The notes under the pieces were generated by a model. It was given only the letters and a program-made list of their open reading frames with translations. It searched no databases and had not been told where the DNA came from. 64,000 nucleotides of DNA from Firmicutes bacterium HGW-Firmicutes-14 (lineage in GTDB: Bacteria; Bacillota; Thermincolia; Thermincolales; UBA2595), in contig PHAB01000002.1 in assembly GCA_002840275.1 (NCBI GenBank), forward strand, positions 186,001-250,000. Direction: 5' to 3'. The position numbers and the translations under genes were made by a program. Below, one piece after another: positions 10,727 to 55,833 of this stretch (within the stretch, counting starts at the first letter, position 1; the number at the start of each line of letters is the position of its first letter).

Positions 10727-10783
10727 AAAGGCCGTTAAAAACATTCCCTTTAAGGGTTTGTTTTTAACGGCCTTTATTTTTTT
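10727..10783 (+). terminator. Intrinsic terminator after rex
   Basis: A perfect 16-bp stem (10727-10742 with 10760-10775, core GGCCGTTAAAAAC) followed by ATTTTTTT. Confidence 0.92.
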
Positions 10784-32596: not shown

Positions 32597-32628
32597 AAAA
32601 GGAAGGTTTTATGTAAAACCTTCCTTTT
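32597..32628. terminator. Perfect hairpin between hydrolase and paralog genes
   Basis: A perfect 15-bp stem (32597-32611 with 32614-32628, AAAAGGAAGGTTTTA) on a 2-base loop. The T-run falls inside the stem. It probably ends the minus-strand hydrolase transcript, whose stop is 24 bases away. Confidence 0.65.
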
Positions 32629-34600: not shown

Positions 34601-34645
34601 CAGGGGAGTGTTCATAAGTGAACTTATGAACACTCCCCTGATTTA
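34601..34645 (+). terminator. Strong hairpin terminator after rpmA
   Basis: A perfect 18-bp stem (34601-34618 with 34623-34640, core GGGGAGTGTTCATAAG) on a 4-base loop, then ATTTATT. Confidence 0.85.
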
Positions 34646-52553: not shown

Positions 52554-55028
52554 GTGAAGGAACGTTATGACTTTAATGAGATTGAGGTTAAATGGCAGGC
52601 GGTATGGGAAGAAACGGGATTATATAAAATACAGCATAATGACCCATCCAGGGAGAAATATTACTGCCTTGAGATGTTCCCATATCCCTCAGGGAACCTG
52701 CACATGGGCCATGTCCGGAACTATTCAATCGGTGACGTGGTAGCGCGGTTCAAGACTATGCAGGGGTATAACGTCCTCCACCCGATGGGCTGGGACGCTT
52801 TTGGCCTGCCAGCCGAAAACGCGGCCATCAAACGCGGCATCCATCCGTATAAATGGACCATCAGCAATATCGAAAACATGAGAAAACAGCTTTCCCGACT
52901 GGGATTTGCTTATGACTGGTCAGGGGAGGTAACCACGTGCCGGCCTGATTATTACAAGTGGACCCAGTGGCTTTTCCTGCAATTCTACAAGAATGGGCTT
53001 GCTTATAAGAAGGAAGCGGCTGTCAACTGGTGCCCCGGTTGTATGACAGTACTGGCCAATGAACAGGTGGTCAGCGGGGAATGTGAGCGTTGCGGGACCG
53101 AGGTGACCAGGAAAAACCTGGCCCAGTGGTTCCTGAAAATCACTGATTACGCTGACCGGCTCCTGGCAGACATCGAAAAACTAAAAGGATGGCCCGATAA
53201 AGTCAAGATAATGCAGGAAAACTGGATCGGACGCAGTGAAGGGGCAGAGGTGGATTTTCAGATCGAAGGCACTGATGAAACCATTACTGTTTTCACTACC
53301 AGACCTGACACTATTTTCGGAGTCACTTTTATGGTCCTGGCTCCTGAACACCCGCTGGTCGAAAAGCTTACCGAGGGCACTCCCTATGAGGCAAGTGTAC
53401 AGGACTTTGTCCGCCGCATGAGAAACCTGAGTGAGATTGAGCGGACATCTGCCGATACGGAAAAAGAAGGCCTTTTTATAGGAGCCCATGTAATCAACCC
53501 CATGAACGGGGAGAAGATTCCCCTGTTTATCGCCAACTATGTCCTGATGGATTATGGCACTGGGGCGGTTATGGGTGTGCCCGCCCATGACCAGCGGGAT
53601 TTTGATTTTGCCACAAAATACGGCCTGCAGATCAGGGTTGTCATCCTGCCTGAGGGAGTTCCCGACAAATATGTCCAGCTGACCCAGGCTTATGACGCCG
53701 AGGGTATTATGGTCAATTCAGGTGTTTTCGACGGCCAGGACAATGAAACTGCCATCAAAAACATTACCACATATATGGATAAAAAGGGAGTGGGCAGGCC
53801 ATATGTGAACTTCCGTCTCAGGGACTGGCTGATTTCGCGTCAGCGATACTGGGGAGCGCCCATACCCATAGTGTATTGTGACAGGTGTGGAGAGGTGGCA
53901 GTGCCGGATGAACAGCTTCCGGTATATCTGCCGACAGATGTGGAATTTAAGCCAACCGGCCAGTCCCCCCTGGTAGAATGCGACTCTTTTGTCAATATCA
54001 CATGCCCTAAATGTGGCGGCCCGGCCAGGAGAGAGACTGACACCATGGACACCTTTATCTGTTCATCCTGGTATTTTCTCAGGTATTGCAGCCCCCATGA
54101 TGACAAAAACGCCTTCACCCGGGAAAACATTGATTACTGGATGCCTGTTGACCAATACATCGGCGGGGTTGAACATGCTATTCTCCACCTGCTCTATTCC
54201 CGGTTCTTTACCAAGGCGCTGCAGGACCAGGGATTGGTTGGCATTGATGAACCGTTTACAAAACTCCTGACCCAGGGGATGGTCCTCAAAGACGGGGCCA
54301 AGATGTCTAAATCCAAGGGGAACACGGTAAGCCCGGAAGAAACAGTGGCCAAGTACGGCGCAGATACGGCCCGGCTGTTTATTCTCTTTGCAGCGCCGCC
54401 GGAGCGCGATCTGGAGTGGAGTGATGCCGGCGTGGAAGGTGCATACCGTTTCCTGAACCGGGTATGGCGGTTTGTTTTTGCTTATACAGACAAGCTGAAC
54501 GAGTCACCGAAGGTTGAGGACGTTTCAGATGCTGACAGGGAAACCAGGCGGCTGACCCACCATACCATTAAAAAGGTCACCGATGATGTCAGCCTCAGGT
54601 TCAATTTCAATACAGCCATCAGTTCTATTATGGAATTTGTCAACTGGCTTTACCTGTACCGGGATAAAAACCCTGTCCGCAACAGCGCCATAGAGGCAGA
54701 GGCTATGAATTCCCTGGTAATCCTGCTGGCACCCTTTGCACCTCATATTGCCGAGGAACTCTGGCATGAGCTGGGTTATACCGGCAGTGTGCATAAACAG
54801 CCGTGGCCCCATTACGACCCGGCCGCCCTGGTGCAGAATGAGGTGGAAATAGTAATCCAGATTAACGGCAAGGTCAAGGCGCGGATGATGGTCCCGGCTG
54901 ATGCCGGCCGGGAAGACCTGGAAAAATTCGTCCTGGAAAAGGAAAACGTGAAAGGCCTGACCGATGAGAAATCGGTGGTCAAAGTTATTGCGGTCCCCGG
55001 GAAACTTGTAAATATAGTGGTGAAGTAA
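52554..55028 (+). CDS. leuS: Leucyl-tRNA synthetase
   Basis: Class I synthetase charging tRNA-Leu, with post-transfer editing. The product is 824 residues, normal. HIGH-type HMGH lies in [15 protein letters not shown] near residue 50, the editing domain is in the middle ([19 protein letters not shown]), and KMSKS is present as AKMSKSKGN near residue 583. Starts at GTG 52554 with TAGGAGAGG upstream. Controlled with the acyl-CoA ligase by the leucine T-box; a terminator follows. Confidence 0.98.
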
Positions 55029-55037
55029 AAAGGTCAG

Positions 55038-55068
55038 GGGAGTGCTCTTTGAAGGCACTCCCTCTTAT
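55038..55068 (+). terminator. Intrinsic terminator after leuS
   Basis: A perfect GGGAGTGC (55038-55045) and GCACTCCC (55055-55062) stem followed by TCTTATTATTT. Confidence 0.8.
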
Positions 55069-55086
55069 TATTTATGAAAACCAAGA

Positions 55087-55199
55087 GAGAGGCAGGTATG
55101 TTCCTTCATGACGGCAACGATTCAGTTTGTTACCCAACAAGGCAGCTCTAAGCACTAAAATGCTTAGAGCCTAGTCATGAAGGAACATACCTGCCTCTC
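55087..55199. repeat. 113-bp nested palindrome
   Basis: A perfect 26-bp outer inverted repeat (55087-55112 and 55174-55199; GAGAGGCAGGTATG...) encloses a second perfect 10-bp inverted repeat (GCTCTAAGCA 55145-55154 and TGCTTAGAGC 55161-55170). There is no ORF inside and no T-run. It could be a miniature mobile element, a REP-like unit or a structured RNA. It lies between two convergent terminators in a 284-base gap. Confidence 0.85.
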
Positions 55200-55274
55200 C
55201 CGAATTTATAAATAATAACCTGAATTGCCAACCTTCAAAGAACCTTCCATGATAACTCATTTTCACTTAGAAAT

Positions 55275-55304
55275 AAAAAACGGAGGCCTTTTTGAAGGCA
55301 CTCC
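55275..55304 (-). terminator. Terminator of the minus-strand gene at 55313
   Basis: On the minus strand GGAGTGCC and GGCCTCC form a stem (55304-55282, one bulge) followed by GTTTTTT. Confidence 0.75.
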
Positions 55305-55312
55305 TATGACTT

Positions 55313-55630
55313 TTAGTGCAGGTATCTATAGATTTCGGGTTTTAGGAATACGACCCATCCCCCGGTAAGGTTGTTCCGGTGGAAAAGTTTATGGATACGG
55401 TTGGCCATTTCCTCTCTTTCCCGGTAATCATGTACACGGGACTGAATGTTAACCCACACGTATTTCTGTTTTGGGCCCCGGACGGAAATATCAAACACAG
55501 CCTCTTCATCAATTGTTTCCAGGAGGTTTATGACTCTTATAAAATCTGTTCTGAGAATATTTTTCAGAAGTGTTCCGTAAACAAAGTAGTAAGCATCATC
55601 CTGGGGTTTTGGGGGATTAAGGAGTTTCAC
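55313..55630 (-). CDS. Hypothetical protein
   Basis: A 105-residue soluble protein with a mixed alpha/beta pattern (DAYYFVYGTLLKN; EEAVFDISVRGPKQKYVWVN; TGGWVVFLKPEIY). Not recognised; no catalytic motif or signal peptide. GTG 55630 is preferred because GGCGGTGA lies five bases upstream; GTG 55639 overlaps that site. It has its own terminator and stands opposite to its neighbours. Codon pattern looks like that of the surrounding genes. Confidence 0.65.
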   Translation of the reverse strand: MKLLNPPKPQDDAYYFVYGTLLKNILRTDFIRVINLLETIDEEAVFDISVRGPKQKYVWVNIQSRVHDYREREEMANRIHKLFHRNNLTGGWVVFLKPEIYRYLH

Positions 55631-55833
55631 ATTAATCACCGCCTTAATATAAAAAGTTAAATCAGGGTGCGCTTACAATTTATAAGTCATTAATTACCAT
55701 TATTATAACATAGGATATCCCTCACTGCATCCCTAAAATCACGGCATTTTTCTGAAAATTTATGAAAATCAGCAGGAAAAAAAACATTAATAGAGAAATT
55801 TTGTACAAAGTCCAATTTTGGGAGATGACAGCT

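Follow-up and report, generated by a model that had tools for sequence, protein, structure and literature searches.

A long-hairpin repeat family in Thermincola and its relatives, with a probable deletion derivative downstream of leuS

We consider it rather probable that the perfect palindrome located between leuS and a convergent open reading frame in the 64-kb stretch of DNA analysed here (the window) is an internally deleted copy of a non-coding long-hairpin repeat family of Thermincola and relatives. The family has many copies with a common hairpin, its stem pairs covary, its copies prefer the 3' ends of genes, its orthologous sites are filled in some genomes and empty in others, and it is absent from the other sampled genomes of the phylum. 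These observations are best accounted for by a non-autonomous long-hairpin repeat of the YPAL/ERIC kind that is confined to this lineage and old at some sites, with the window copy as a deletion derivative.

The palindrome in the window and the anatomy of a full copy

The inverted-repeat search revealed two perfect arms of 26 bp on the plus strand at 55087-55112 and 55174-55199 (0 mismatches, 61 nt apart), which enclose a second pair of perfect 10-bp arms at 55145-55154 and 55161-55170 (0 mismatches, loop of 6 nt), as the preliminary description of this locus had stated. With a minimum arm length of 12 nt and a spacer limited to 150 nt, the window has six perfect inverted repeats, of which the 26-bp palindrome is the longest; in 30 first-order Markov surrogates the arms reached 14 at most. 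For the region 55060-55230 the RNA folding energy is -79.1 kcal/mol, compared to a shuffle mean of -30 (z -14.3). Outside the perfect arms weaker complementarity continues, at 80% between 55068-55112 and 55174-55218, at 76% between 55054-55078 and 55205-55229, and at 82% between the outermost arms 55039-55055 and 55232-55248. Thus, the element is larger than first described: its inner arms are perfect and its outer ones imperfect, and it extends from approximately 55039 to 55248 (plus strand). The covariance model R1, which was built from 31 copies taken from the present genome and its relatives, has its only match in the window at 55076-55210 (64.9 bits); by this model, other perfect inverted repeats at 34601-34640, 10727-10775 and 32597-32628 (arms of 19, 17 and 15 bp) do not belong to the family.

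The left neighbour of the element is leuS (52554-55028, plus strand; Pfam leucyl-tRNA synthetase editing and anticodon-binding domains), the 3' end of which points towards the element, and the right neighbour is a convergent ORF of 108 aa without a Pfam match (55313-55639, minus strand). This neighbourhood appears to be kept in three Thermincola genomes, where the start of a gene resembling the 108-aa ORF comes after the element (by eye). Both genes had been proposed to have terminators of their own, separate from the palindrome. Terminator-like structures were indeed seen for both, and that of the 108-aa ORF lies outside the element (55286-55299, minus strand, terminator-like site search), but the leuS hairpin with its T-rich tail (55037-55063, plus strand) sits in the outer left arm and forms the left outer end of the element.

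Full copies form a single long, imperfect hairpin, in which two asymmetric internal-loop strands are conserved while the tip varies. Such a copy comprises the left core GGCWACRAYTCAGYTTGTTACC and the right core GGACAARCGGAYRTCAGACTCG, together with an inner stem around GGCAGATATATTCC, outer arms that are weaker, and one of several tip types; a second core variant GGCAACGTCTCCGCC occurs together with CGGATGACAGACTCG. Orientation is set by the core motif, and for the window copy the plus strand is the better-scoring of the two with R1. In most full copies the core together with the inner stem measures 131 to 192 nt. Changes on both sides were found in 26 of 36 stem pairs when 31 copies were compared, and in 31 of 58 pairs in 13 copies with long tips. 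Type D tips carry extra hairpins; judged by eye, the type-A tip resembles the 3' half of the type-D tip in inverted form, and the type-B tip resembles type D with a deletion. The motif GTGYCCCATAAGTAAATGGGRC was considered as the terminal motif of the element and rejected, since its seven places, six beside copies and one (C57) without a copy, do not suffice to mark the end of an element.

The window copy retains the left core strand GGCAACGATTCAGTTTGTTACC, a conserved internal-loop motif which matches the family pattern exactly at 55113-55134 (plus strand) and, with up to three mismatches allowed, nowhere else in the window. It also retains an apical hairpin at 55145-55170 (plus strand), which according to inverted repeats and alignment is equivalent to the type-A tip. 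Alignment with four copies places a deletion junction at 55171-55173 (plus strand), between this hairpin and the right arm, where 27 nt of the type-A copies are absent, including most of the right core strand; the right core motif was not found in the window, the pattern search giving one distant match at chance level. Because of this loss the copy reads as two nested palindromes, so that the nested arrangement of 26 and 10 bp is not the native design of the element, which in full copies is one continuous hairpin. The 64.9 bits of the window copy are well under the values of intact copies of the same genome (up to 144). In line with the deletion, the window copy is one of 7 among 33 exact left cores for which no right core was found within 6 kb, while the other 26 have one at a distance of 30-260 nt. 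With most of one core strand gone, it has probably ceased to be mobile, and its role could at most be that of an additional barrier to transcription between the two neighbouring genes.

Copies, relatives and orthologous sites

Comparison of the window sequence with its own genome gave 22 other places at E < 1e-3, which proved to be hairpins with a common core; the further copies for which the preliminary description suggested a search thus exist. With R1 we obtained 92 rows corresponding to 64 distinct places in this genome at E <=0.01, a number that is based on scoring 150 of 734 first-look candidates and on rough E-values (shortened calibration), so that the weakest rows may be chance matches. 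A DNA search with one copy matched 10 of 41 relatives, namely nine genomes of one family, including the present one, and one genome of the same order; the remaining 31, all labelled as the same phylum, gave no DNA match to the copy used. The genus Thermincola itself belongs to Thermincolaceae (Bacillota). The same ten genomes (this one, eight of the family and one of the order) were the only ones matched by R1 among 398 genomes of the phylum, scanned under stricter filters and with scoring limited to eight candidates in each. A two-motif pattern search of 84,980 species genomes yielded 20 stretches, all from five assemblies named Thermincola ferriacetica or Bacillota/Firmicutes bacterium. The exact two-motif pattern was not found in viral contigs, and one 266-base copy from the genome G009 used as query had no match in phages and plasmids. 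In the literature searched, mostly without subscription papers, we found no report on such a repeat in Thermincola.

To compare orthologous sites, the joined flanks of six copies of the Thermincola genome G004 were searched in G002, G004, G007 and G008. At two sites (L060 and L063) the flanks join without an element in G008, while G004 and G007 are filled. R1 had no match in three G008 loci (the L060, L062 and L063 sites), but each of the four G007 loci tested gave a match, that at L173 being weak (40 bits). At the L062 site of G008 only a short outer-arm-like stretch is left. A short palindrome with outer-arm similarity only (L170, G008:C13, at about 81060-81193 of the contig) lies where G004 has a full element and is a possible excision remnant. 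No clear target-site duplication was seen at the one well-aligned empty site, where the flanks are too diverged for a firm reading. The occurrence of filled and empty sites is compatible with insertion and loss alike.

At the 3' end of leuS, R1 detected an element in G004, G005, G007, G008 and the present genome but not in G001, G002 and G009, which makes five of the eight genomes with an identified leuS; G003 and G006 are outside this comparison, since only a synthetase of 31% identity was matched there. As the site is occupied in two genera, some copies must be old or sites must have been re-used. In G004 and G008 the element points the same way as leuS, and the opposite way in G007, where the left flank resembles the reversed right flank of G004, with the reservation that these are metagenome assemblies and an assembly error is possible.

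Of the three candidates named in the preliminary description, a non-autonomous mobile element fits best, considering that the repeat is multicopy, limited to relatives, non-coding, and present or absent at orthologous sites; a mover could not be linked to it. No full-length partner with the same ends and a transposase was found, and no copy carried a gene (33 exact left cores examined, 6 kb). Integron attC sites, which are marked by R and L boxes and accompany a cassette gene, were also considered, and no cassette context was noticed. The two matches to Y1 transposase and the four matches to reverse transcriptase (one below the cut-off) are each at least 11 kb from any copy or on other contigs, so that neither enzyme is adjacent to a copy. 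A MITE driven by a known insertion sequence is not supported by the examination of the left cores and the searches for these two enzymes. Nested insertion was dismissed as proof of mobility, because at L020 and L127 the interrupted copy is without its second half and a fusion of neighbouring copies fits equally. Copies paired at short distance, some of them oppositely oriented, were noticed at L018, L022, L024 and L039. The two other candidates, a protein-bound cruciform and a small RNA, may still be considered.

Strand asymmetry and gene context

An unlikely alternative is that the family represents a structured non-coding RNA transcribed from the strand opposite to the core orientation (the minus strand), the copies being RNA genes or domains under selection and not mobile debris. 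The covarying stem pairs and the fixed loop strands agree with such an RNA, and so does a column-wise count in the 16 inner stem columns of 89 copies, which gave 120 would-be G-U mismatches for the minus strand and 19 for the plus strand (superseding a first wobble count of 170 versus 98). However, five columns next to TTCC contribute 88 versus 1 to this asymmetry, which may be one inherited feature, and the other eleven columns show 32 versus 18 (p 0.065); moreover, a folded minus strand of DNA predicts the same asymmetry. The orientation of the copies to genes is not fixed and flips at leuS, copies are absent at orthologous sites in G008, and four copies had no Rfam match at the gathering cut-off. 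At relaxed E, the window and three further loci gave nothing near gathering, and the weak matches (microRNA and other families) were judged to be chance. The asymmetry is an indication, though not a decisive one, that the minus strand is functional as RNA or as DNA. Compensatory changes in the stem of a repeat are by themselves no proof of a selected RNA.

The copies are mostly located at the 3' ends of genes. According to crude ORF calling, 26 of 68 copies lie between convergent ORFs, 31 between tandem and 4 between divergent ones, while 7 have no ORF on one side (61 have one on both). Among 66 outer flank segments on each side, 18 left and 12 right ones had inward-facing terminator-like sites, together 30 of 132, as compared to 12 of 132 in the outward direction and 16 of 490 controls, part of which are coding DNA. 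This distribution, together with the occupied leuS 3' ends of five of eight genomes, would suit a host element for termination or insulation, in which long hairpins are kept at gene 3' ends and stop transcription from both sides. We nevertheless regard this explanation as quite improbable: a terminator does not need fixed 13-nt internal-loop strands, 102 of the 132 flank segments are without a terminator-like site in this test (the controls of which included coding DNA), and three genomes (G001, G002 and G009) do without the element at leuS. Finally, a functionless chance duplication-inversion at one place, corresponding to the case of a single copy without relatives that the preliminary description had allowed for, has a negligible probability and is already refuted by the multicopy family with a common core in this genome and its presence in relatives.

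Arm homogenisation and comparison with known repeats

Returning to the non-autonomous repeat as the preferred explanation, we analyzed how the two arms of a copy relate to each other. The similarity of an arm to its own partner is 13.7 on average and that to the arms of other copies 5.9; in a rank test no more than 25 of 57 left arms had their own right arm as the top-ranking partner. Next to TTCC, the two arms usually differ in their 4-nt spacer (TCCA left, GGAA right). Both arms carry the same spacer in 9 of 51 copies, with 2.8 expected from pairing different copies, and all nine are among the 22 copies of this genome, as compared to 0 of 29 elsewhere (Fisher p 1.6e-4; one row, among the 13 non-identical ones of this genome, joins the left half of the interrupted L020 copy to the right half of the copy beside it). 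The inner stems have on average 5.05 defects here (n=41) and 5.5 to 7.5 in the other eight genomes (n=57; p 8.5e-7), stems with at most two defects being not significantly commoner here (2/41 versus 0/57, p 0.17); in all these tests related copies count as independent, which makes the p values optimistic. Since arm sequences homogenise within copies of this genome, and arms also become identical inside old copies, perfect arms are no proof of youth, and the earlier proposal that they mean recent origin or selection does not name the only options.

Template switching between inverted repeats has two known products, arm homogenisation and spacer inversion, according to the accessible part of one source (PMC8604942). 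The inverted orientation of the leuS-site element in one of three Thermincola genomes is what template switching during replication predicts. We propose that the family once spread as a non-autonomous element, and that a folded single strand, RNA or DNA, may be recognised by a putative protein via the two internal-loop strands. Copies would persist best at gene 3' ends, where promoters stay unbroken and a hairpin acting as barrier or terminator would be harmless or even useful. Template switching in DNA replication could copy one arm from the other and so partly keep the arms complementary, and the perfect arms in the window may have arisen in this way. In its full form, with the element moving or acting as a folded minus strand of RNA or DNA, a putative protein of its own reading the two loop strands, and template switching rewriting the arms and flipping the element in place, this scheme is doubtful, and we put it forward tentatively. 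If true, it would mean that the arms evolve fast and yet stay complementary, and that the element can flip in place. Template switching in replication is usually inferred from single cases; with dozens of long hairpins in each genome, at sites that may be filled, empty, inverted or deleted, the family provides a natural set in which the process could be followed directly.

Several known repeats can be compared with the family. YPAL/RU-2 of Yersinia is described, in the available part of PMC2229807, as an intergenic non-autonomous repeat of approximately 168 bp which folds into a long hairpin, has targets spanning or adjoining dyad symmetry, and is known from filled and empty sites. By this description it resembles our elements, which are likewise long intergenic multicopy palindromes with filled and empty orthologous sites (two, here). 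It differs in belonging to another phylum and in target-site duplications of 3 to 26 bp (same partial source), none of which are evident here, while in our family the stems diverge strongly between copies and the two internal-loop strands are fixed. ERIC and Correia/NEMIS, in the same portion of PMC2229807, are also small mobile repeats with long stem-loop transcripts and size variants by internal segments, but possess target duplications and terminal inverted repeats ending in TA; ends of this sort are not established here. The template-switch homogenised inverted repeats, as far as the accessible parts of PMC8604942 and PMC8794818 go, share arm homogenisation, blockwise compensatory change and spacer inversion with our copies; there the pattern concerns short repeats within yeast genes, and also RNA genes, whereas ours is a multicopy bacterial repeat. 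REPs are palindromic, extragenic and multicopy as well; with approximately 20 to 50 nt (available parts of PMC3733652 and PMC12306157) they are shorter than the elements described here, which at about 140 to more than 200 nt are outside the REP length range.

A minor observation concerns the right flank of L049 (about 155-300 of the query), where another repeat has dozens of matches in the Thermincola genomes G004, G007 and G008; judged by eye, its sequence is unlike that of the hairpin element.
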